From: Mucilaginibacter sp.
GTDB lineage: Bacteria; Bacteroidota; Bacteroidia; Sphingobacteriales; Sphingobacteriaceae
DNA: 42,832 bases
Reading direction: 5' to 3'
Assembly: GCA_028288285.1 (NCBI GenBank)
Contig: JAQBNZ010000231.1
Coordinates: 1 to 42,832 of the forward strand
Shown: positions 3,230-24,902 of the stretch, piece after piece
Layout of the letters: every line of letters begins with the position of its first letter
How positions within the stretch are numbered: the first letter of the stretch is position 1
The notes under the pieces: model-generated
Told to the model about the DNA's origin: nothing
The model's database searches: none
What the model saw: only the letters and a program-made list of their open reading frames with translations
Translations under genes and position numbers: made by a program

Positions 3230-4252
3230 ATGGAAGTTGGGATTGACAGTTTTGCTGCCACATATAAAGGCACCGGACCAAATATTACTGATGCGGAGGC
3301 CATGGGACAGTTGCTTGACCGCATTGAACAAGCTGACCGTGCGGGCCTTGATATATTTGGCATTGGCGAACATCATCGTAAAGAGTTTTTAGACTCAGCC
3401 CCTGCTATAATACTGGCTGCGGCTGCGGCACGAACAAAACAAATACGCCTTACAAGTGCAGTAACTGTTTTAAGCGCTGCCGACCCTGTAAGGGTCTTCC
3501 AAAACGCCGCCACGCTTGACCTTATCTCTAATGGCCGTGCCGAAATGGTAGTTGGCCGTGGATCCTTTACCGAGTCCTTCCCTCTGTTTGGGTTTAATTT
3601 ACATGATTACGACCAGCTTTTTTCTGAGAAACTGGAACTGTTATTAAAGCTATTAGATAATGAGCATGTACACTGGACTGGCAAGTTCAGACCCGCTTTA
3701 ACCGGGCAAGGAATATATCCAAGACCTGTTCAAAGCCCATTGCCGGTATGGCTGGGTGTGGGTGGTACGCCAGAATCATTTGTGCGTGCCGGTGTGCTTG
3801 GCTTGCCCTTAATGGTAGCCATTATTGGTGGCGAAACACACCGTTTCCGTCCTCTGATTGATTTGTACAAAGAGGCCGGGAAAAGAGCCGGCCATGCACC
3901 CGGGAAACTTAAAGTAGGTTTGCATTCGCTTGGTTATGTGGCAGAAACCACAGAACAGGCCGTTGAAGAGTATTATCCCGGCTATGCAGAAACTTTCACA
4001 AAAATTGGCCGCGAACGAGGATGGCCACCAGTGACACGCCCAGCATTTGATGCGGTAGCCGGCCCAAAAGGCGCAATCATAATTGGAGGGCCAAAAGAAG
4101 TAGCAGCCAAAATAATTCGACATAGTGAGGCATTGGGCGGTATCTCCCGGGTTACATTTCAAATGGATAATGCCAACCTGCCACATGAAAAATTATTGAA
4201 GGCTATAGAGTTGTTAGGCAAGAAAGTGAAGCCGTTAGTGAATGGAGTGTAA
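3230..4252 (+). CDS. LLM-class (luciferase-like) flavin-dependent oxidoreductase
   Basis: A 340-residue protein of the bacterial luciferase-like monooxygenase fold (TIM barrel using F420 or FMN). Family marks are the N-terminal strand MEVGIDSFAAT, the GIGEHHRKEF segment, the ITSAVTVLSAADPVRVFQ-like strand, ELVVGRGSF-type GRGSFTESF, and PVWLGVGGTPESF near the middle. I start it at the ATG at 3230 because the family's first strand begins there; an in-frame ATG at 3176 would add 18 residues that do not resemble the family. No signal peptide is present. The substrate cannot be inferred. It is separated from both neighbours by more than 200 bp and so is probably transcribed alone. Confidence 0.88.
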   Translation: MEVGIDSFAATYKGTGPNITDAEAMGQLLDRIEQADRAGLDIFGIGEHHRKEFLDSAPAIILAAAAARTKQIRLTSAVTVLSAADPVRVFQNAATLDLISNGRAEMVVGRGSFTESFPLFGFNLHDYDQLFSEKLELLLKLLDNEHVHWTGKFRPALTGQGIYPRPVQSPLPVWLGVGGTPESFVRAGVLGLPLMVAIIGGETHRFRPLIDLYKEAGKRAGHAPGKLKVGLHSLGYVAETTEQAVEEYYPGYAETFTKIGRERGWPPVTRPAFDAVAGPKGAIIIGGPKEVAAKIIRHSEALGGISRVTFQMDNANLPHEKLLKAIELLGKKVKPLVNGV

Positions 4253-5089: not shown

Positions 5090-5162
5090 TGACCTGGGAG
5101 AGGCTCGAACTCTCGACCCACTGATTAAGAGTCAGTTGCTCTACCAGCTGAGCTACCAAGTC
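5090..5162 (-). tRNA. tRNA-Lys (anticodon CTT), island attachment site
   Basis: On the minus strand a full cloverleaf can be drawn. The acceptor stem is GACTTGG with CCAGGTC, the D stem GCTC/GAGC, the anticodon stem ACTGA/TCAGT with loop CTCTTAA (anticodon CTT, reading AAG Lys), and the T arm GAGAG-TTCGAGC-CTCTC. The discriminator is A and CCA is not encoded. The 5' half and upstream flank of this tRNA are repeated at 24810-24902, so the gene was used as an integration site and rebuilt by the element. Confidence 0.95.
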
Positions 5163-5213
5163 AATTGTTTTTGTGGGATGGCAAAGAAACGAAAATTATT
5201 TGAAGTGTAAAAG
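5112..5213. repeat. left attachment site (attL) in tRNA-Lys
   Basis: Bases 5120-5213 match 24810-24902 with about five differences. They cover the tRNA from the anticodon stem to its 5' end and about 50 bp upstream of it. The 8-mer CTCGACCC at 5112-5119 also recurs at 24775-24782, but there a 27-nt hairpin separates it from the rest. Confidence 0.85.
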
Positions 5214-5326
5214 GCTTTTTATAGTCAATTTGGATGTTTTGTGCCTTATTTGCTACTTAACCTATCTAACTCATTTAAAAGCACCCCTTGCATTCCCTAC
5301 CCTCTTTTATACCACGTAAATTCTAA

Positions 5327-5346
5327 TTTGCAAACTGTTTGCAAAC
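5327..5346. repeat. left-end pair of TTTGCAAAC sites (putative integrase arm sites)
   Basis: TTTGCAAAC occurs at 5327-5335 and 5338-5346, an 11-bp period, about 200 bp inside the left end. The identical 9-mer occurs three times with the same period at the right end (24700-24732). The remainder of 5214-5447 holds no credible gene. Confidence 0.7.
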
Positions 5347-5447
5347 AATCTAACCTTGTAAATAAATTAATGAACTGTTTAGCTAATGTAAGCTATCTGA
5401 TTGATTGTATCAATCGACTTTAACTTGTGTTTTCCATAACTGTTTTT

Positions 5448-7639: not shown

Positions 7640-8569
7640 TTATGCAGTTTCATAAGTCACTTGCATGATGTAATCAGTTGCTCTATGCGCCTGTGCAGCA
7701 GCTTTAATAATTAACGTTTTATCATTTTTCAGAGCCTTAAGCCAGCTTTCAATGTAGGCTGCACTGTTGTCGATAGTTGCTTGGCCAATGCCGGTTATGG
7801 CACTTAAAAATGCTGCTGTCATTTCCGCGGTAAGCTCTTCTTTAGCATAGGTAGCAGTGCCAAAGCCATCCGAAGCTAAAAGCTCTTTACGATTCAATCT
7901 GCTTTCATGGCCTGTACTATGTGCCAGTTCATGAAATAGTGTACTATAATACCCTTCGTTAGATTTGCATCGTTTTAAGCTTGGTACGACAACAGTATCA
8001 GTAGTTGGCTGATAGTATGCGCTGGTGCCATTCTTGCGGATAACTGGCTTATTTGGCATGTCTATAATGATGTTTTCGCAAGCTTCTATTATCTCTGTTT
8101 CGGTTCGCAATTCTGCTTCGAAGCAAGGGAATTCAATTCCTTCTGTTTGAGCTATATTAAAAACAGTGTAGGTTTTAGGAACCATAATGATTCTTGGTTT
8201 TGCTGATTCATCGGCTGGTTGTAAAGTAGCCTCGTCTGATTGCTTATTTAAGTCAATTTGTGCCCAATAGATAATTCTTATTCCTTTCTCGCCTTTCTTA
8301 ATTGAGCCTTTAAGTTGGCTAGCTTGTTTGTAAGTAATGTAGTAAGGTATCGCATAGCCTTTGATCATTGAATGAAAGTTAAGAAGGAATAGGTTCCAGC
8401 CCCGGTAATTAACATTAGTAGTTATGTTCTTTGGTAGGCCAACCTGGTTCCAGGGACATTGCCAAATGATTGTGCCCTCTTCTAGTGCTTTGATAACTGC
8501 ATCTGTTACCTCTTGATAGGTGTCGACGAATGTGTTTTGTGGTACGGTTGGTTGTGTTGTAGTTGCCAT
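7640..8569 (-). CDS. ArdC-like antirestriction protein (ssDNA-binding plus zincin metallopeptidase-like domain)
   Basis: A 309-residue cytosolic protein with the two-part layout of ArdC proteins of plasmids and integrative elements. The N-terminal ssDNA-binding domain (DUF1738-like) has VTDAVIKALEEGTIIWQCPW (18-37), NYRGWNLFLL (54-63) and KKGEKGIRIIYW (91-102). The C-terminal zincin-like domain has the zinc motif HELAH (213-217) followed by STGHESRLNR. ArdC proteins protect incoming DNA from restriction after transfer. Its presence fits an element that moves as single-stranded DNA, although no relaxase is seen here. Regulation may involve the structured leader at 8580-8727. Confidence 0.87.
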   Translation of the reverse strand: MATTTQPTVPQNTFVDTYQEVTDAVIKALEEGTIIWQCPWNQVGLPKNITTNVNYRGWNLFLLNFHSMIKGYAIPYYITYKQASQLKGSIKKGEKGIRIIYWAQIDLNKQSDEATLQPADESAKPRIIMVPKTYTVFNIAQTEGIEFPCFEAELRTETEIIEACENIIIDMPNKPVIRKNGTSAYYQPTTDTVVVPSLKRCKSNEGYYSTLFHELAHSTGHESRLNRKELLASDGFGTATYAKEELTAEMTAAFLSAITGIGQATIDNSAAYIESWLKALKNDKTLIIKAAAQAHRATDYIMQVTYETA

Positions 8570-10848: not shown

Positions 10849-11634
10849 CTACAATACTAACAAAGGTTTAAGTCGGAATGCTATTTTAAAGCTATTAGGC
10901 AAGGTGTAAGCCTCCCAGTATTCAACATTTTTATAACCAGATGTCTCTACAGTATTTATTATAGACAACATATCTTCTTGGTTCGTTTTGCAACCGAATA
11001 TAATACATCTTAGAGCTTCTCTTTTATAGGGTATTGCACCTTGTCTTATATCAATTAATCTATACTCATCTTCATATTCCCAAGCCTTTGATTTGGTGGT
11101 AAGTAATATCATAGCAGCATTGGTTTGGTTGTCAAAGTAATTTCTCGGTATGAATTCATCTGTGTATCGCACTTTGGCAACCATGAACGATTCCACATCG
11201 CAATGTGTATCAAAGACCAAGCATACTCCCCGATGATGTTGTGCGTAGTGTGACCACATCAATGTGCTCTCATGGTTTGTAGTGAAACAACAAATACCCT
11301 GAGAGTCTAATATAGAATCGACGCTATTGATGTAAGCTTCATAAACCATGTTTGGTTCTTCTAATATAAAATTAGTAACCAAGTCTAAGTCTTCCCCCGG
11401 CAAGAGAGTTCGCTTGGCATATTCAATCAATTGCTCATTTGATGCGTCAAATGTTAAAAGGTGTTTATAGCAATCATAAGGGTCATTAAATGATGTCCTA
11501 CTAGAATGCCAAAAGTACCCACCACGCAAGCTTTCATGAAGATACTTATCGATTCGATGATATTTAGATAACTGTGTAGGTAGCCCCTTTGGAAGGAACT
11601 CCCTCTTCATCGTTTCTATTTCAAACCTGTTCAT
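10849..11634 (-). CDS. DUF2971 family protein, last gene of the SIR2-like set
   Basis: 261 residues, cytosolic. It shows the three conserved blocks of DUF2971: an N-terminal FWHSSRTSFNDPYDC (41-55, the 'lw.s....fNDPfE' type block), LMWSHYAQHHRGVCLVFD (125-142, the 'lWahYa..h.GvclgF' block) and KSKAWEYEDEYRLI (181-194, the 'K...W.yE.EyRl' block). The family has no firm biochemical role; its charged conserved residues suggest an enzyme. It starts 62 nt after the stop of the SIR2-like gene in the same direction, so the two are probably one transcript. A Met at residue 9 is an alternative start. The family call is good; the role in defence is inferred from the partner genes. Confidence 0.8.
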   Translation of the reverse strand: MNRFEIETMKREFLPKGLPTQLSKYHRIDKYLHESLRGGYFWHSSRTSFNDPYDCYKHLLTFDASNEQLIEYAKRTLLPGEDLDLVTNFILEEPNMVYEAYINSVDSILDSQGICCFTTNHESTLMWSHYAQHHRGVCLVFDTHCDVESFMVAKVRYTDEFIPRNYFDNQTNAAMILLTTKSKAWEYEDEYRLIDIRQGAIPYKREALRCIIFGCKTNQEDMLSIINTVETSGYKNVEYWEAYTLPNSFKIAFRLKPLLVL

Positions 11635-11696: not shown

Positions 11697-12734
11697 CTAA
11701 GATCTCTTCCATTTTTCCTCTGCATCTATCAGCGGTTTATGCCAGGCCCACAAATCTTCGAGGGTTTTAAAATCATTTGGAACCGGATTAGATGCGCTTA
11801 ATGCTTCATCAATAGTCATAGGGTGATTATGTTGATGGTAACTTTCAAAAGTTCTCCTGGGATTGCTTGCTAAAGAGGACCGGAAATAATCGTTTACGTA
11901 ATCATAATGATGTGTATTAATAAAAGTGTTCCAGCTACGCTTAACCTCCTGCTCATTTCTTACATCAATCATTTCCATTTGCTCCATAACTCTATCATCA
12001 CTCGTTCCCCAAGCATCATTGAGCAACATCATTGCTTCTTGGTCAGTCTTAGGAGCGCCATACCCAAATATCGTGAACCTTGCAACTGACTTATCACTAA
12101 GAAAGCTTTTAGTCATATCCCATTGGCTTCTGATAAACTCATCATTGTTGTAGTTTTTCTTCGTTACGGGATATAATAGTTTGGTTGGAACGAATGTGTT
12201 GTAAGTTTTCTTGGATATCATGCCAGCTGGCCCACACCTTTTATCTTCATCATCGTAGCCAATTGCAACGTTGCCATGAAGAAATGCGATATATGGCATG
12301 TCACCAACATGATGATTCCTTGTCCAAGCCTGATACAAAAATGGATCCCAATTGAATGTAGCGATTAAGTCCCTTGGCCTTAAAGACAGAACCAAATAGT
12401 CATAAATTGTAGGACTTGGCGGTAACTCCATATCAGCGAAGTAATCACGAACCCTCATTTCCAATTCCAAAATTAAACTTGATGAGGGATTGTCTTCGTG
12501 TAAGAGACTATAGAAAGTTTCAAAGTTATCCGCTCTTAATTTACTAGGAGCCGCTTCCAGTAAGTCTCTTAAGCCGACAACATCGATAAAGTTATCCATT
12601 GATGGAAGCTTTTTGCCTTTGGGTTCTGAGTTATAAATAGTAGAGGCTATACTTGCACCAGCACCCAGAATAACCACATGTCCGCCACCGCCATAAACGA
12701 TATTTATTCTATCTTTTATACTAAGTCCCGCCAT
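11697..12734 (-). CDS. SIR2-like NAD-binding domain protein (candidate defence effector)
   Basis: 345 residues, cytosolic. SIR2-type motifs appear in order: HVVILGAGAS (19-28, the GAGxS NAD-binding loop after a beta strand), ATFNWDPFL (125-133, matching the T-x-N-x-D block), FLHGNV (151-156, the catalytic LHG histidine) and FTIFGYGAPKTD (220-231, the late 'GYS..D' nucleotide loop). The C-terminal 110 residues are charged and alpha-helical, without a recognised domain. SIR2-like proteins act as NAD-degrading effectors in Thoeris, DSR and short-Argonaute phage defence; that is known of relatives, not shown here. It follows the DUF2321 gene by 20 nt and precedes the DUF2971 gene by 62 nt. The domain is smaller and more divergent than sirtuins, so deacylase activity is unlikely. 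Confidence 0.75.
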   Translation of the reverse strand: MAGLSIKDRINIVYGGGGHVVILGAGASIASTIYNSEPKGKKLPSMDNFIDVVGLRDLLEAAPSKLRADNFETFYSLLHEDNPSSSLILELEMRVRDYFADMELPPSPTIYDYLVLSLRPRDLIATFNWDPFLYQAWTRNHHVGDMPYIAFLHGNVAIGYDDEDKRCGPAGMISKKTYNTFVPTKLLYPVTKKNYNNDEFIRSQWDMTKSFLSDKSVARFTIFGYGAPKTDQEAMMLLNDAWGTSDDRVMEQMEMIDVRNEQEVKRSWNTFINTHHYDYVNDYFRSSLASNPRRTFESYHQHNHPMTIDEALSASNPVPNDFKTLEDLWAWHKPLIDAEEKWKRS

Positions 12735-12754: not shown

Positions 12755-13243
12755 TTAACCCCAAATAGCTTTCTTAGCTGTTTCACTAACCACATCTATC
12801 AAAACCTCTTTCAAACCTGCGGCAACTTCTTTACCTGCTTTTGCTACAACCTGCTTGAATCTAAGTACACCTACACTAGTTTTAGGCGTATCAATTACTA
12901 TATCATTTATTGCACTGATCAGATTATTTTTCTCGTCAGAATTTAAATTTTCTGAAAGCTCAATTAGCTGTTTAGCCGCTTCCTGTCGGCTTTCAGTCCA
13001 AGGATATTGTTGTCCACATTTGTGGCAATATTTAGGTATCCGATATCTTTTAGGATCTCCAATGACTCGACCTAACATAAAAGGATAACCTTCAATAGGT
13101 TCAGAGCATTTTTTGCAGTTATTAATTGTTTTTGCACCACATTCCCTACAATAGTCTTTAACTTGTATTGGATATATAGTCATGGCTCCATTTATCAAGT
13201 GCCCGTTTACACACACTTGTGCTGTATCATAATTATATTGCAT
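12755..13243 (-). CDS. DUF2321-like zinc-finger protein, first gene of the SIR2-like set
   Basis: 162 residues. The N-terminal half matches DUF2321: YDTAQVCVNGHLIN (5-18), then DYCRECG (about 31-37), NCKKCSEPIEGYP (about 42-54) and PKYCHKCGQQYPWTE (about 70-84), giving several Cys pairs for two or more zinc ribbons. The C-terminal half (residues 90-162) is a helical tail with a Gly/Ala-rich amphipathic stretch (KAGKEVAAGLKEVLIDVV), which could touch membranes or a partner. The 20-nt gap to the SIR2-like gene points to one operon. A sensor or adaptor role is an inference from position and zinc fingers. Directly upstream lies a 500-nt structured non-coding block. Confidence 0.75.
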   Translation of the reverse strand: MQYNYDTAQVCVNGHLINGAMTIYPIQVKDYCRECGAKTINNCKKCSEPIEGYPFMLGRVIGDPKRYRIPKYCHKCGQQYPWTESRQEAAKQLIELSENLNSDEKNNLISAINDIVIDTPKTSVGVLRFKQVVAKAGKEVAAGLKEVLIDVVSETAKKAIWG

Positions 13244-13260
13244 CTCCTAAAGATAATGAT

Positions 13261-13790
13261 ATCTTATTTATCTACAAATAGGTTCGCGAACCGACCTGCG
13301 AACAGAGCAAAACGTCTGTGAAGGGAGAGCCGATAGGCGGCTGCACAGAATGCTTCACAAAGGCTTGGCGCTGCATTTGAACATATAAGACAAGTGCTGA
13401 AAAGGCTAGCATCAAATGCTGTGAAAAGACTGAAGCGTTTTGCGAGACGCAGGTGAGCCAAACAAGATGAACATATAGACTTTTATATTTTGAGTGATAG
13501 AGATAAGCGATAGCGTGCTGTAGAGGGAAATGTATAAAAGGATAGCGAGAGTGAATGTGATGAAGCGACTCTGCGAAAATCAAACAGTATGACAAGCCAG
13601 TTGTAAACTGGTTAAGCGTTAATGTGCTTTGAAAAAGCTTATTGATGCTTAACGAAGCTTGGCGTAATGTTATGATGAGGTTGAGAGCGAAGAACTCCAA
13701 TCTTCCTGGTGTTGAAAAGGCCCGGAGCGGAAAGAACAGATTTCACCATTCCCTCTTAAACAACTCCTGAGAGAATGGTTAAATATGGTT
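13261..13790 (+). ncRNA. candidate large structured non-coding RNA
   Basis: About 500 nt without a credible protein. GC and purine content on the plus strand are clearly higher than in flanking genes. Hairpins include GGTTCGCGAACC (13281-13292), ACAGA/TCTGT, GCATTTGA (13373-13380) with TCAAATGC (13412-13419), GCGT/ACGC, CCAGTT-gta-AACTGG (about 13598-13612), the long interrupted stem 13612-13652 (TTAAGC+GTTAAT+GCTT with AAGC+ATTGAT+GCTTAA) and ACCATTC..CTC (13745-13755) with GAG..GAATGGT (13769-13779). A/G-rich loops favour the plus strand as the RNA. It could instead be the leader of the minus-strand defence set. No known RNA family is recognised. Confidence 0.45.
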
Positions 13791-13842
13791 CTGTTTGCAA
13801 ACTGAGCTTGTGCGTGTTGTACTTTTTTGACTTGATAAGATG

Positions 13843-14376
13843 TTACGGAGTTTCAAAAATATTTTTGCATTCCATCGCAACTTTTAAGTTGATGTCTTTA
13901 GGAACGGGTACTAATAGTGAATCAGGATACCGTGCCTTTAATTTCATAATTACGCAATCACAAAACTTGTTGGTCTTAGCATTAGGATATTTATTTTGAA
14001 AAACAGCAAGGTAGTCCTCTCGAAAAGTTTTTTCAATTAAAGGAGTCCATATTGTATAATAAGGTTTAATTTCAGCATTACCTGTGCCATATTCTTTCAA
14101 TGCATATTCTCGACCAATTTTAATATTCAAAGCATGAAGACTATCCTTCGAAACCGAATTCAAACCATTTGGCAATTCTTTTTTAAGTTGGGTTATAGTG
14201 AATTCAGTATATTTAGCTCGCTTTACGTCATCTGGCATTGAAGGTTTTGAAGTGGAGTCAAGGTAATTGTAGAGACCTTGTTCGTAATTCTTAGTCCAAA
14301 CTTTTGATTTAGATTGTCCGTTGCATGCAGACATAAAAAAGGACATAAACAAAAACCCTAAACATAACTTATTCAT
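13843..14376 (-). CDS. lipoprotein, function unknown
   Basis: 177 residues. The signal MNKLCLGFLFMSFFMSAC has a lipobox ending at Cys18, followed by NGQSKSK, so it is a lipoprotein. The mature part is mostly helical with a late conserved-looking segment NKFCDCVIMKLKARYPDSL and a further Cys in MECK near the C-terminus; a CxC pair and a third Cys could form disulfides or bind a metal. I do not recognise the family. It is the first of a run of secreted or small unknown genes (13843-16903) on the minus strand in the island. Confidence 0.7.
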   Translation of the reverse strand: MNKLCLGFLFMSFFMSACNGQSKSKVWTKNYEQGLYNYLDSTSKPSMPDDVKRAKYTEFTITQLKKELPNGLNSVSKDSLHALNIKIGREYALKEYGTGNAEIKPYYTIWTPLIEKTFREDYLAVFQNKYPNAKTNKFCDCVIMKLKARYPDSLLVPVPKDINLKVAMECKNIFETP

Positions 14377-17305: not shown

Positions 17306-17806
17306 TTAAGCGACTGCTTGCATTTGTTTTCGCTTAGCTGCCTGTGGCTTATAAGTAATGACTTTAATTGGATAATTGATCGGACTGCTCTCTACTGCTT
17401 CAAATAACTCTGAGCATGCGGTCGTGATATAAGCAGAGTAAATGCAATCCTCGATATTAACTTCGGTTTGTTCCTTAGCAGTGTATCTATGCAGCATCCG
17501 CATGAATTTGGCTGTTAATGGTGTGTATTCATTCCTTTCGCTAAACTGCTCAAAGCCAAATTGGATACAGTAACGGTCGCCATCATCATCAGTATGCAAA
17601 GCCAGGTATATGACTGGTGATATTAACTGATGCTCTTTCATGTTGGCATAAAAGGTCTTTTCCGATAAGTGAATGGTACAGCGTAGGTCATGCCTTTCAA
17701 TGGTGGCAAGTAGGTTTTGAGTTGCTTTGAGGATTTTAGAATAGGCTGCTTTAACTGCTTTATTATAAGTTACAATTCGTGGGTCATTGATAGTTCTTTG
17801 TTTCAT
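17306..17806 (-). CDS. hypothetical island protein
   Basis: About 166 residues starting MKQRTINDPRIVTYNKA (ATG at 17806; an upstream in-frame ATG at 17878 would add 24 residues of poor quality). No signal or membrane segment. A beta-rich middle (SPVIYLALHTDDDGDRY, about 70-86) and a basic tail (KPQAAKRKQMQAVA) suggest a small nucleic-acid-associated protein, but I do not recognise it. Similar small genes of unknown role cluster at 17306-19586. Confidence 0.55.
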   Translation of the reverse strand: MKQRTINDPRIVTYNKAVKAAYSKILKATQNLLATIERHDLRCTIHLSEKTFYANMKEHQLISPVIYLALHTDDDGDRYCIQFGFEQFSERNEYTPLTAKFMRMLHRYTAKEQTEVNIEDCIYSAYITTACSELFEAVESSPINYPIKVITYKPQAAKRKQMQAVA

Positions 17807-17918
17807 GATGTATTGGGTTAAGTGGTTAATGAGTTTGTGAATTGACTGTAAATGAAAAATGCCTGGTCGACAGACCAAGCATTTGTAATGTTGTTGTGTG
17901 CTGCTTAATCGCAGGACC

Positions 17919-18398
17919 TTATAAAAAATATATGAACTGCGGTTTTTGATAGGCCAATACTGCTTTGTAGAACGCTGTTAAGCTTGGTTCTTTCCTTACC
18001 TCGGTAACATAAAGACTAATATTGAAGTGCCGGAACAGTTCTCTTATTTCTTGCTCGAAAGGGCAGTTATAGAATTGGTATTCGATATTAATGTTGTAAA
18101 CGAAGTCACATTCAATGTTCCACCAAAATGTGGAAGTAAGGAAGCTGTAAATGGTAAATGGGTTCTCGTTGTCATGCTTAAAATCTCTTTCATAGCATAT
18201 TTCACCTGAGTTGTGATATAGTTCCTTTACTTTGCCAAGCACCAATTCATATTGACTGATCTTGGTATCAACGAAAGCTTTCATTTGATTAGGGTGTGAA
18301 TGCTTTGTAACGCTCTTCCAGCGCTTTGAGATAGGTCTTATTCGCGAGTAGGTATTGGTCGAATTTGGTATTTCATTGATTTCTGAGATCTCTTTCAT
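17919..18398 (-). CDS. hypothetical island protein
   Basis: 159 residues, no signal or membrane helix. The first 40 residues are Ser/Asn/Lys-rich and probably flexible; the rest is aromatic-rich (FTIYSFLTSTFWWNIECDFVYNI, here split as FTIYSFLTS and FWWNIECDF) and ends QKPQFIYFL. Not recognised. It lies about 110 nt before the next minus-strand gene and may share its transcript. Confidence 0.5.
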   Translation of the reverse strand: MKEISEINEIPNSTNTYSRIRPISKRWKSVTKHSHPNQMKAFVDTKISQYELVLGKVKELYHNSGEICYERDFKHDNENPFTIYSFLTSTFWWNIECDFVYNINIEYQFYNCPFEQEIRELFRHFNISLYVTEVRKEPSLTAFYKAVLAYQKPQFIYFL

Positions 18399-20040: not shown

Positions 20041-20098
20041 CAATTCAGAAAATAAGCTACCTCTATATAACTTAAAAATTAACATTTTCTGAATTAGA
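20041..20098 (-). repeat. 58-nt terminal-palindrome repeat, copy 4
   Basis: Exactly 58 nt. On the minus strand it begins CTAATTCAGAAAAT, contains TATAGAGGTAG at the same offset as copy 1, and ends TTCTGAATTGG. It overlaps the stop of the helicase-like gene and supplies its last eight codons. A short (GATA)2(GATT)2 tract separates it from copy 3. Confidence 0.6.
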
Positions 20099-21898
20099 AA
20101 AGAGTCGCTCTCTAAGCTTATAAACATTTTTTTTAAGTTCAGTTGATCGATCACCGGCAAAGAATAAAAGAATATCATTTGTTACAAGCTTGCGCTTAGT
20201 GTTAGCGTTTGAATATGCTTTCTTTATTAAGATTCTTAATTCAGATTGAATATGTGTGTGGTTGCCTTTTATGATACTGTATATAAATGGTGCCATGCGC
20301 TTAAGCTCTCTTTTTTCCTTAACGTCATCAATCGCTTTACGAATAGCAGAAATAACATAATTGGTATTTTCGAGAGTAATTTCATCAAGGTAATCAACGC
20401 CTTCAGCTATTATTGGATATTTCGCTCTTAACTTAGATAAAATATGTGTTGGTTTAAATAGTATTAAGTGTGCATGAGATTTGATTTTATAATTGTACAA
20501 CATCGCTGCTGCTAGCCGAAACTTTTCCTTTTGCGTTAGACTCTTGTGCAAACCAAACAAATCTTTATCACCGGCATCAAAAATATCTTCTTGATGCGTA
20601 ACAACAAAATGCTTACTACGTTCAGAATATGCCTGCTTTAATAGCTGAGGAGCCTTATAATACTCCTTAACCCGTTCTTCATGAATAAAATTGTCGACCA
20701 TAGCGGTATTGAGTTCTCTATCAATATAAAATGAATGTGCTTTAGATTCGGTCATGGCTTTGTAATAGGCGTCCTTACGCCCTATGTTCGAAGCATTATC
20801 ATGAGCTTTAACAAAATCGTTATAAGCCTCAAATAACCCTTCAAGATAAAACATCGCTTCTGTAGGAGTTTTAGTAACTAAATCGGGATTATAGTTAGTT
20901 ATATGGGTTAAGCTGTTGATGCCATTTCTAAATCGCCCTGGAATTTGAATTACCTCTGTTTTAGGGTCAAGGATACTGTGGTCTGCAAATAAAATATCTG
21001 AAACTAATATTATGTCGGGTTTATAATCTAATTTAATGTCAATTGCTGAGAAGTATCTACTCGTAAAGAAATTATAACTTTTCATTTTGTGAACGGTAAA
21101 ATCGTCTGTTACTCTTTCAAATGGAATGTCCTTATCGAGTAACTTTAACACGCTATTTTCTGCACAGAATACCATGTACTTTGATTTTAAGCCTAAGCCT
21201 TTAATCACTGCATTTATGCCTTTTGTAGAATTGAAGAAGATTGCAACATGGTTACTATTAAGTTCTTCTAACTTCAATTTTAGCGATTCAATGACGTTGT
21301 TGGTGCTAACCAAAGTTATTGGTTTGCTATAGTCGTATTGAGGCTCTATCACATAATTTTTAAACTCTTTGAAACGTGGATCGCTGAAAGGAAGTGTGGT
21401 AGCTGAAACCATTCCTTTTCTATTAAATTTAAAAAAATGATTAAGTGGTGCAGCAATTGCGCCTCTATAAGATACATCACTGATAATTCTTTCTGATTCA
21501 TCTATCAGCATGTAAAAGTTTTTGTACAATTCAGATATGTCACTAAAAGCTTTAATAACCTTGTCATTAAAGCCTTCAGGAGTGGTTATTATCTTTTTGT
21601 GTTTTACATTAGAAAGTAGATAGGCTTTGATCTTTGCTATAGTTATGCCCTTGTAAACACCAAGAACTAATTGGCCTGGGAATTTTTCATTATGTTCATC
21701 AACCTTTGCTTTAACTACAGGCATATTAGGAAGGGTCATCACGAGATGACTTAAGAAAAAGCGTATAGCGAATGTGCTAATGCCTATTCCAGTTATTGTT
21801 TTGTCATATTGGCTGTCAGTATCTAATCCCGAACTTTTAAATGGTTCTATATCGCTGAGGTAAGTGTCCTTGGGAAGTTTAATTGGTATTGGTTCCAT
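20072..21898 (-). CDS. SF2-helicase-like protein lacking the Walker A lysine
   Basis: 608 residues, cytosolic. Helicase-like motifs appear in order: TITGIGISTF (34-43) at the Walker A place, MLIDESER (130-137) as DExx box, VSATTLPF (164-171) as motif III, and VIQIPGRFRNG (316-326) as motif VI. The Walker A has the G-x-G-x-[ST] shape but no lysine, so ATP binding may be altered; from memory, related proteins of Bacteroidota phages and elements show similar GxGxT motifs. The C-terminal 250 residues are helical and of unknown function. It is probably a replication or maintenance protein of the island, as it lies with the integrase-proximal genes. It follows the 22003-22392 gene after a strong terminator. 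Confidence 0.6.
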   Translation of the reverse strand: MEPIPIKLPKDTYLSDIEPFKSSGLDTDSQYDKTITGIGISTFAIRFFLSHLVMTLPNMPVVKAKVDEHNEKFPGQLVLGVYKGITIAKIKAYLLSNVKHKKIITTPEGFNDKVIKAFSDISELYKNFYMLIDESERIISDVSYRGAIAAPLNHFFKFNRKGMVSATTLPFSDPRFKEFKNYVIEPQYDYSKPITLVSTNNVIESLKLKLEELNSNHVAIFFNSTKGINAVIKGLGLKSKYMVFCAENSVLKLLDKDIPFERVTDDFTVHKMKSYNFFTSRYFSAIDIKLDYKPDIILVSDILFADHSILDPKTEVIQIPGRFRNGINSLTHITNYNPDLVTKTPTEAMFYLEGLFEAYNDFVKAHDNASNIGRKDAYYKAMTESKAHSFYIDRELNTAMVDNFIHEERVKEYYKAPQLLKQAYSERSKHFVVTHQEDIFDAGDKDLFGLHKSLTQKEKFRLAAAMLYNYKIKSHAHLILFKPTHILSKLRAKYPIIAEGVDYLDEITLENTNYVISAIRKAIDDVKEKRELKRMAPFIYSIIKGNHTHIQSELRILIKKAYSNANTKRKLVTNDILLFFAGDRSTELKKNVYKLRERLFSNSENVNF

Positions 21899-23363: not shown

Positions 23364-24677
23364 TTATACTGCTATCAGTAACGCTCTAAATGATCTTTTA
23401 AAAAAGACTTCGGTTTTCAAGATATACTTATAAGGATACTTAATTTGTAACTTACAAGGGATAATACTCACCACTACCCTATCGTTCATTGCATCAATTA
23501 GATTCTGTTCAAAGTCATCAAGATAGATGTTAGTTATTTTATTCCCGTACTCATGACCCAACGCTTCCGCAATCATCTCATTTGAATAACCTAATTTTTT
23601 AGCAATAGTAGCCCACGTATGCCTTATTACATATGAGGTTACGTTATTAGTTAACTCACAACTGCCAGCAATGCGGTTTAGATACTTGTTAGTTGTTTTA
23701 ATCCACTGCCTAGTAATCTTCTTAACTTCGATACTGTCCTCCACAATGTTATCTGGCAAGATTGGAAGTAAATATCGACCGCCTGTTGCCTTATAGATAT
23801 TAAAAACCTCTCTCGCTACAGGATGAAGCTTAATTGTATAAAGCTTTTGGGTTTTCCTTCGCCTATAAACAATGTAGCCATCTTTGAGGTTAGAGGCTTT
23901 AAGATAGGCCATATCTGTAAACGACATTCCACGAAGTGCAAAGCTTAAGAAGAAGTAGTTTGCCGCATGCCATTCCTGAGTGTTAACTTTCTTTGGATAT
24001 TGATAAAGTTTAATTAGTTCCTCAATTTTAATGGCGCGTTTAGCGGTCTTCTCTGTTTTGATTGGGATATCGTGGAAAGGATAAAGATCTCTTGGTACTA
24101 ACTTTGCCTTGATAGCCTTGTTGTAAAGTGCTCGGATACTTCGAAAGTAATTTCCAACACTATTCTTCTTTAAACCTTGCTCAAGCAATTTATTCTTAAA
24201 TCCATCCAAAAATGTATAGTCAATATCGGCAAAGGATAAGCTTAGGTTACCACTATATTCTACTACCCTATTGACAGCTGTTTGATAAACCAATGCACCA
24301 CCGGATCGCTTTACTGTTATCATATTGTCAATTACGCTTTGGCTATATTCTTTAAAAGTTATTAACTTTTTGACGACAACGGGCTTTGGATTTACCATTG
24401 CTTTAAGTTCATCAAATGAGAATGAGTTATTAACTTCTAATGAGATAATGGCTTTTTGAATGAGAGTATAGTAAGTAGCGATTTTGTGGTTTAACCCCGA
24501 CCAATTAGCATTTGCTTTTGAAACTTGAAGTAGATTCTTGTTCCAATGCTCGGGTAGTAAAAACACTCCAGTTTGAAATGCTAAAACCTTACGGTTATAA
24601 GTTACTCTAACTACTAATGGAAATGTACCATCTTGTTTTGCTCTTCTTTCATCTAGAGCTAATTTGTAAGAAACCAT
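23364..24677 (-). CDS. tyrosine site-specific integrase of the island
   Basis: 437 residues with the usual three-part layout: an N-terminal arm-binding domain (YKLALDERRAKQDGTFPLVVRVTYNRK, here residues 4-30), a SAM-like core-binding domain (about 105-200) and the catalytic domain. Catalytic residues read R249 (FALRGMSFTDMAYL), K275 (RRRKTQK), Y349-x-x-R352 (TSYVIRHTWA, where many relatives have His-x-x-Arg), H375 (ALGHEYG) and nucleophile Y385 (TNIYLDDF). About 40 residues of unusual basic and hydrophobic sequence follow the normal C-terminus. It starts 133 nt from the right tRNA repeat. Three TTTGCAAAC sites lie just upstream and may give autoregulation. It inserts the element into tRNA-Lys. 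Confidence 0.92.
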   Translation of the reverse strand: MVSYKLALDERRAKQDGTFPLVVRVTYNRKVLAFQTGVFLLPEHWNKNLLQVSKANANWSGLNHKIATYYTLIQKAIISLEVNNSFSFDELKAMVNPKPVVVKKLITFKEYSQSVIDNMITVKRSGGALVYQTAVNRVVEYSGNLSLSFADIDYTFLDGFKNKLLEQGLKKNSVGNYFRSIRALYNKAIKAKLVPRDLYPFHDIPIKTEKTAKRAIKIEELIKLYQYPKKVNTQEWHAANYFFLSFALRGMSFTDMAYLKASNLKDGYIVYRRRKTQKLYTIKLHPVAREVFNIYKATGGRYLLPILPDNIVEDSIEVKKITRQWIKTTNKYLNRIAGSCELTNNVTSYVIRHTWATIAKKLGYSNEMIAEALGHEYGNKITNIYLDDFEQNLIDAMNDRVVVSIIPCKLQIKYPYKYILKTEVFFKRSFRALLIAV

Positions 24678-24699: not shown

Positions 24700-24732
24700 C
24701 ATTTGCAAACCATTTGCAAACCATTTGCAAAC
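24700..24732. repeat. three tandem CATTTGCAAAC sites at the right end (putative integrase arm sites)
   Basis: Three perfect 11-bp tandem repeats 23 nt upstream of the integrase ATG and about 80 bp from the tRNA repeat. The core TTTGCAAAC is identical to the left-end pair at 5327-5346 and repeats once per helical turn. Confidence 0.7.
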
Positions 24733-24774: not shown

Positions 24775-24902
24775 CTCGACCCTTTTGGGCGTGCTAACGC
24801 CCAAATTTAACTGATTAAGAGTCAGTTGCTCTACCAACTGAGCTACCAAGTCATTTATTTTGTGGGATGGCAAAGAAACGAAAATTATTTGAAGTGCAAA
24901 AG
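24775..24902. repeat. right attachment site (attR) with interrupted tRNA-Lys fragment
   Basis: 24810-24902 duplicates the tRNA-Lys 5' half, from the anticodon stem, plus about 50 bp upstream flank. Before it, CTCGACCC (24775-24782) matches the next tRNA segment, but a 27-nt insertion (24783-24809) holding a 9-bp hairpin (TTTGGGCGT/ACGCCCAAA) separates the two. The tRNA 3' end is missing, so this copy is not a functional tRNA. 24903-25070 beyond it has no visible gene. Confidence 0.8.

Follow-up and report, generated by a model that had tools for sequence, protein, structure and literature searches.

Positions 13286–13799 of the plus strand hold one copy of a large RNA family that, as judged by comparative sequence analysis, is real and unrecognised, and is tied to a family of genomic islands whose backbone is itself mostly unrecognised. 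The window is the whole stretch of DNA analysed, 42,832 nt of Mucilaginibacter sp. contig JAQBNZ010000231.1. With moderate confidence, we read the block as a large structured plus-strand non-coding RNA gene of tRNA-integrated islands, serving the life cycle of the island in trans. The RNA would contribute to the upkeep of the island, its transfer or its competition with other elements, and would probably work as a ribonucleoprotein or an RNA assembly rather than for any one cargo gene. Its 5' end would be the edge where cargo joins, in which case recombination next to or inside the RNA would shape the islands.

13286–13799, plus strand: large structured RNA, whole conserved unit of 514 nt (blastn homologues, sharp 5' homology limit, covariation in three parts)

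Extent, composition and folding of the RNA

Copies of the family are approximately 510–600 nt long. Comparison of loci showed a sharp onset of homology at 13286 and an end near 13799. A sequence-only reading of this DNA had outlined a non-coding block at 13261–13790; a conserved unit was indeed found there, but its limits shift to 13286–13799, with 13261–13285 lying on the cargo side and carrying no conservation. The same reading had described the block as richer in GC than its neighbours and purine-rich on the plus strand, and both features were borne out. In 200-base windows, G+C is 0.405–0.44 in the block versus 0.32–0.36 just outside, a contrast that is local, as the genes at 11.7–12.8 kb reach 0.42. 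GC skew of up to +0.39 and AT skew of up to +0.28 within the block account for the purine richness.

Folding of the block was compared with dinucleotide-preserving shuffles (n = 100). The plus strand gave −159.9 kcal/mol (z −3.8), with no shuffle as good, and the minus strand gave z −1.7, with 5 of 100 shuffles as good. The skewed composition would suit an ordinary intergenic sequence that folds by chance or by composition, but the plus-strand z value was obtained against controls preserving dinucleotides, matches occur in 14 genera, and covariation far above slid controls (below) refutes this explanation, to which we give practically no credence.

Covariation in three parts of the RNA

Homologous copies were aligned over three parts of the unit, which contain the following elements.

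13286–13462, plus strand: 5' domain (alignment A1, model R1)
13296–13300/13448–13452, 13307–13314/13436–13443, 13353–13356/13432–13435, 13361–13367/13425–13431 and 13373–13380/13412–13419, plus strand: helices counted in the 5' domain
13315–13323/13341–13349, with inner 13329–13331/13336–13338, plus strand: hairpin counted in the 5' domain
13286–13292 with 13452–13458: further closing helix of the 5' domain, with tandem G-A (by eye only)
13286–13362, plus strand: module 'A', the first 77 nt, elsewhere also alone at cargo boundaries with 43–76 nt kept (profile search, solo copies)
13586–13671, plus strand: three-way-junction domain, comprising outer stem, short hairpin and long hairpin (alignment A4, model R2)
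13597–13611: short hairpin of the three-way junction (by eye, outside the pair count)
13611–13653: long hairpin of the three-way junction
13733–13798, plus strand: 3'-terminal hairpin with conserved loop (alignment A3)

Alignment A1 spans 13295–13459 in 39 copies, 6 truncated rows having been left out of 45 (window included), and its structure was drawn by hand. Pairing was found in 90.2% of cells, with two-sided change and pairing kept in 31 of 44 pairs. Its covariation of 0.432 compares with at most 0.103 when partners were slid and a shuffled average of 0.147; none of 500 shuffles was as high. The count of further pair types was reached by 20 of 500 shuffles, so it is less telling. As many as five pair types occur at a single position of helix 13307–13314/13436–13443, which is 89.6% paired and has compensatory changes in seven of its eight pairs.

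For the other two parts, 30 full-length copies were kept and 15 of the 45 left out; both structures were predicted by RNAalifold from the very alignments in which they were then counted, which favours them somewhat. A4 comprises the 14 of 29 located junction segments that are shorter than 105 nt; 94.8% of cells are paired, 12 of 18 pairs show two-sided change, and covariation is 0.480 (at most 0.126 with partners slid; 0 of 500 shuffles as high), while further pair types do not beat the control (88 of 500 shuffles as high). A3 comprises the 26 of the 30 copies with a recognisable loop; 91.0% of cells are paired and covariation is 0.533 (at most 0.134 with partners slid; 0 of 500 shuffles as high), with two-sided change in 10 of 13 pairs, a count that does not beat its control (46 of 500 shuffles as high). 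The loop of this hairpin reads UAAGCAAC in most copies and UAAACAAC in the window. A 3'-terminal hairpin of this kind was also found in 11 of 20 copies in other genera versus 18 of 400 control stretches, with L202 doubtful.

Three stems had been picked out by the sequence-only reading, and each was recovered with covariation in homologues. Stem 13373–13380/13412–13419 is helix 8 of A1, with three of eight pairs changed on both sides and four on one side. Stem 13612–13652 is the long hairpin of the three-way junction, in which two of two outer and five of seven inner pairs had changed on both sides in A4 (the nine pairs counted there). Stem 13745–13779 falls within the 3'-terminal hairpin of A3 and shows compensatory changes.

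The covariation tests cover the parts on either side of the middle part, 13463–13585, which differs between subtypes. A possible contact between the terminal loop and a GUUGC motif in this middle part, looked at by eye, was set aside, as the partner is absent from the copy in the window. The remaining 15 of the 29 junction segments are longer than 105 nt, and by eye approximately 10 of these (L036, L046, L047, L052, L055, L058, L060, L062, L069 and L072) have a recurring inserted hairpin of the type GCACATTTTT...AAAAATGTGC where the short hairpin would be; it may be a mobile or modular insert nested there.

Strand, coding potential and transcription signals

The plus strand is favoured by fold energy, G-U pairs and GNRA loops. 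It folds better in all 30 full copies (mean −184.4 versus −153.0 for the minus strand); G-U cells number 49 versus 29 A-C cells, 12 of the latter at two pairs judged misregistered; and GNRA tetraloops account for 13 of 73 on the plus strand and 2 of 76 on the minus strand of the 30 full copies. This orientation is opposite to that of most island genes.

The frames crossing the block had been said to lack protein character, and this was confirmed. Of 150 insertions and deletions counted against the copy in the window, 11 have lengths divisible by three. In 30 copies, the longest run without a stop codon over the interval has a median of 80 aa, compared with a median of 71 in shuffles (95% at 112); 4 of 30 copies exceed 112 aa, and only the window and L067 are open throughout. 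The minus strand is therefore open to a slightly greater extent than in shuffles, but this openness is not maintained among the copies. From these comparisons, the block is not protein-coding and is probably a non-coding RNA gene on the plus strand.

Across 49 non-redundant loci, the 60 nt that precede the RNA contain no conserved promoter box; only a weak pyrimidine preference was seen at −5 to −1. Within 13150–13950, a scan that does not cover Bacteroidetes promoters gave three sigma-70-like sites versus 1.8 in shuffles, and no terminator-like site was detected.

Comparison with known RNAs

At gathering score, Rfam matched only tRNAs in the window. Relaxing the threshold to E up to 10 for 13000–14000 gave four chance-level matches to other families, and 15 homologous loci searched at E up to 1 gave one tRNA. 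The earlier suggestion of a new RNA therefore stands, with no Rfam family matching and covariation present. Only a handful of bacterial RNA classes of such size and intricacy are known, and a description of an RNA of this kind was not found in open-licence PubMed Central papers.

Size, compact nested fold, sharp ends and mobile context would be in keeping with an undescribed kind of ribozyme or self-splicing intron, but Rfam gave no match, group I and group II intron core domains included (window, 13000–14000 and the 15 homologous loci). Splicing would restore no reading frame, since the block sits between genes, and no reverse transcriptase or homing endonuclease family was found among the window proteins scanned. 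We regard this origin as highly improbable.

The RNA has the marks of a large ornate non-coding RNA of a mobile element, being longer than 400 nt, with many covarying helices and no protein product, in an element with att repeats, an integrase and duplicated tRNAs. GOLLD, ROOL, OLE and HEARO have Rfam models, and none of these covariance models matched the window or the homologous loci. PMC12286853 describes GOLLD and ROOL as forming RNA-only cages; PMC7567579 places them in many phage genomes, frequently near tRNAs, and calls their role unknown. The RNA described here resembles them in its length of several hundred nt, its many conserved helices, its home in a mobile element and its lack of a protein product. 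Unlike them, it lies in integrated islands beside a cargo slot, almost always in one bacterial family, also occurs as reduced 5'-only copies, and has no match to their covariance models. Pedo-repair RNA (RF01715) is given for Pedobacter in PMC2864571, and copies of the present RNA likewise occur in two species of that genus; RF01715 had no match in the Pedobacter loci L183 and L185 (Rfam at gathering score, the model's presence being assumed).

Distribution of the RNA

A blastn search with the block covered 199 genomes from 67 genera, sampled around the host and including it; the 35 genomes with a match all belong to the genus of the host. Beyond the window, the host genome contains two short matches, namely a 59-nt remnant and a further copy (C176, recognised by a later model).

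A covariance model of the 5' part (R1, cut-off E up to 0.01) reached further. It matched 64 of 149 sampled genomes of the genus and 127 of 399 genomes of the host's bacterial family, in 14 of 25 genera. In the order sample, 89 of 250 genomes matched, every genome listed being of the same family, and in the phylum sample 6 of 296, of which five were of that family and one was a weak partial match. For searches of more than 40 genomes, stricter filters were used, by which weak matches are lost. Phage and plasmid records gave no match to the RNA. A pattern scan of IMG/VR gave one contig (L182), judged from its unrelated ORFs alone to be a chance match. Almost all matches fall in one bacterial family, presumably Sphingobacteriaceae in view of the Pedobacter matches described below.

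A second model (R2), of the three-way junction alone, was built from copies found through the 5' part and gave 55 matches in 42 of the 149 genus genomes. Of these, 52 lie 96–247 nt downstream of an R1 match on the same strand, and the three without a 5' part are all weak (26–31.5 bits). Copies with only the 3' part could be missed, because the initial set of homologues was collected with the 5' part.

A family of tRNA-integrated islands

The RNA of the window lies in an island of approximately 19.7 kb, bounded by att repeats, a tRNA and an integrase.

5120–5207, no strand: left direct repeat (att; 88-column repeat, 95%), overlapping the intact tRNA-Lys 5090–5162
17306–17878, minus strand: F1, island core protein of approximately 165–190 aa, start probably 17806
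17919–18398, minus strand: F2, island core protein, whose profile merges with that of F1
20072–21898, minus strand: HEL, SF2-helicase-like island core protein (alignment A2; motifs)
23364–24677, minus strand: tyrosine integrase of the island (Pfam PF17293, PF13102, PF00589)
24810–24896, no strand: right direct repeat (att), with tRNA fragment 24777–24852 (repeat; Rfam tRNA, 37.1 bits)

Smaller islands between duplicated tRNAs were seen at L187 (9.1 kb, tRNA-Asn) and L219 (10.4 kb, tRNA-His). HEL, found in 37 of 149 genus genomes, has the motifs TGIGATT, LLDEC, SAT and QxxGRFR, read from alignment A2, by which it is SF2-helicase-like. HEL, F1 and F2 match no Pfam family and no significant PHROG, and among the island backbone proteins scanned only the integrase and an HTH protein have a Pfam or PHROG family. 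When solved structures were searched with a HEL profile, the four matches had E 0.11–0.74 and are not meaningful; structure predictions were poor (mean pLDDT 49.8 for HEL and 49.0 for F1) and were not used for searching.

The RNA is a usual part of this island family, together with the integrase, HEL and F1/F2. For 39 of 45 HEL matches (which include pieces of one gene), the RNA lies on the opposite strand at a distance of 2–10 kb, on the side where it was expected, and it is present in 33 of 37 genomes with HEL versus 31 of 112 without. For four of the six HEL matches lacking the RNA, the contig ends within 4.1 kb; G076 and G099, with 7 and 12 kb of flank beside HEL, lacked the RNA at full sensitivity. 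Seen from the RNA, 52 copies (including two tandem pairs sharing a right flank, L204 and L211) have at least 7 kb to the right, where F1/F2 occurs in 38, HEL in 37, either in 42 and neither in 10. The F1/F2 family is on the opposite strand to the RNA at each of these 38 RNA copies. The RNA is positioned between this backbone and the exchangeable cargo.

HEL seems to reach further than the RNA. Relatives of HEL and of the integrase occur in three IMG/VR contigs (L243, 9959–11782; L244, 10010–11746; L245, 3159–4418), in which no match to the RNA was found. Within the island of the window, an ArdC-type anti-restriction protein is encoded at 7640–8569 (Pfam ArdcN, MPTase-PolyVal), and TTTGCAAAC-type repeats lie near both island ends (24700–24730 and 5326–5348), possibly as arm sites of the integrase.

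The island family is compact and has few other conserved genes, and its other backbone proteins are unrecognised by the libraries used. As the RNA is common, with many diverged copies, in a compact island and in named Pedobacter strains, its function would be testable by simple deletion.

Cargo at the 5' end of the RNA

Three cargo genes precede the RNA in the window.

10849–11634, minus strand: DUF2971 protein, PADLOC candidate defence PDC-S31 (Pfam PF11185; PADLOC 1.9e-43)
11697–12734, minus strand: SIR2-like protein, labelled so by the earlier reader (no Pfam or PADLOC match)
12755–13243, minus strand: DUF2321 protein, nearest to the RNA 5' end, divergent, with its start 43 nt away (Pfam PF10083, E 5.6e-56)

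In 68 of 80 copies, the first ORF past the 5' end runs divergently from the RNA; in 11 it shares the RNA's strand, and one copy has no such ORF. In the 68 copies, cargo ORFs start a median of 88 nt past the 5' end (starts were forced to fall outside the RNA), and the sequence between RNA and cargo is unrelated except where loci have the same cargo. The 68 nearest cargo proteins are diverse, no Pfam family being present in more than three (TIR_2) among the 25 of 51 families listed, which also include N6 methylase, DpnII-MboI, AbiJ, RadC, ParA-like proteins and AAA ATPases. PADLOC matches include ThsB, PtuA, GajA and AbiLi with two members each, among 25 of 219 families. Some cargo recurs: among the first 40 loci, 10 have a cluster of secreted VGIGTT-type proteins and six have an Rhs-like cluster. 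Since no defence match was obtained for many of the cargo genes, 'defence slot' describes a tendency. P4-like satellites and other islands have a fixed backbone with a variable defence slot. The islands described here differ from such cargo hotspots in that the backbone is mostly unmatched in Pfam and PHROG and the slot is edged by a large RNA. Marking a slot for defence and other exchangeable genes, the RNA can serve as a probe for new anti-phage systems.

The block had been introduced as directly upstream of a SIR2-like gene set. It does adjoin that set here, but the RNA is not specific to it. SIR2-like relatives were found at 62 loci in genome contigs, and among 18 genomes reached through these loci only three were R1-positive, so the SIR2-like gene is not tied to the RNA. 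The three are Pedobacter namyangjuensis, P. westerhofensis (two copies) and, more weakly, Flavisolibacter nicotianae (49.9 bits). At one P. westerhofensis locus (L122, 866–6044), a SIR2-like relative and the 5' part of the RNA (866–1022) share a stretch of approximately 5 kb, where a weak second RNA match is found at 3599–3744 (17.9 bits).

A second proposal of the earlier reading, that the block is a leader or regulatory region of the minus-strand cargo operon whose structure controls cargo expression, draws on its place directly upstream of the cargo start and on the nearest left ORF pointing away from the RNA in most copies. This did not hold up, and we consider it very unlikely: the plus strand is favoured whereas the cargo is on the minus strand, the non-conserved stretch between RNA and cargo could accommodate a promoter belonging to the cargo, the cargo differs between islands, and it also adjoins copies cut to 43–76 nt. 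In the window, this stretch contains TTTG-N19-TATCTTTA, which fits the Bacteroidetes promoter consensus.

The role in the island life cycle, which we favour, follows from the RNA being kept with the backbone across changing cargo, and from 5'-only copies occurring in stacked cargo arrays and at places without a visible backbone.

Shortened copies and recombination at the 5' end

Among 62 unique copies in loci of the genus, 39 are full (at least 90% of length) and 23 are shortened; this count covers copies of the genus with at least 900 nt on their right side, those from other genera (L183–L202) being set aside, and de-duplication removed one solo copy (L062, 4666). By profile, 11 of the 23 shortened copies stop within the first 45–76 nt, and the other 12 at 38–87% of length. 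The ORF next to 11 solo modules was read: five modules lie within 18 nt of its stop codon, four at 66–131 nt, one at 358 nt, and one has a plus-strand ORF next. Truncated copies at L040, L049, L056 and L063 have no HEL relative in the 5 kb to the right.

Several of these features would suit a DNA-level recombination site that adds cargo, like integron attI/attC, with single-stranded DNA forming the fold. Homology breaks off abruptly at the 5' end, the 11 shortest copies end after the first hairpin (a clustering that forms the main support), five of the solo modules sit close to a neighbouring stop codon, and reduced copies in arrays lie on the cargo side in the same orientation. A structured segment at what we infer to be the growing edge of a cargo array is also the likeness to attI/attC. 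On the other hand, the excess of G-U over A-C and the GNRA loops point to RNA, and helix 13307–13314/13436–13443 joins module 'A' to the rest while staying paired with compensatory changes, which means that for the most part both halves are inherited as one. Module 'A' has a single match in the window, hence no second site at the far end of its cargo, and the only Pfam recombinase among its scanned proteins is the tRNA-site integrase. Unlike attI/attC, the RNA is approximately 500 nt with a plus-strand RNA signature and no repeated site past the window's cargo; in place of a site at the end of every cassette, as in an integron array, solo modules were found only at some loci. Taken together, a purely DNA-level site appears unlikely.

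A further reading, in which the RNA or an RNA–protein assembly guides or gates recombination at its own 5' boundary and defence cargo is captured beside the first 70 nt of the RNA gene, is speculative and decidedly doubtful. If true, the RNA would be the working centre of a new kind of mobile island, an RNA-assisted cargo-capture platform, with the solo 5' modules as scars.

Returning to the RNA as an island component acting in trans, we read the short copies as remnants of cargo stacking or of backbone loss. Copies that keep the 5' end beside cargo and have lost the rest argue against a cis leader and for an island role. Reduced copies in arrays likewise exclude a cis leader but, with a full RNA nearby, leave room for action on cargo in trans. 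Arrays of this kind, in which genes separate two or three RNA copies or 5' modules that all point the same way, were seen at L203 (10508–12204, on its reverse strand) and L204 (7864–9470).
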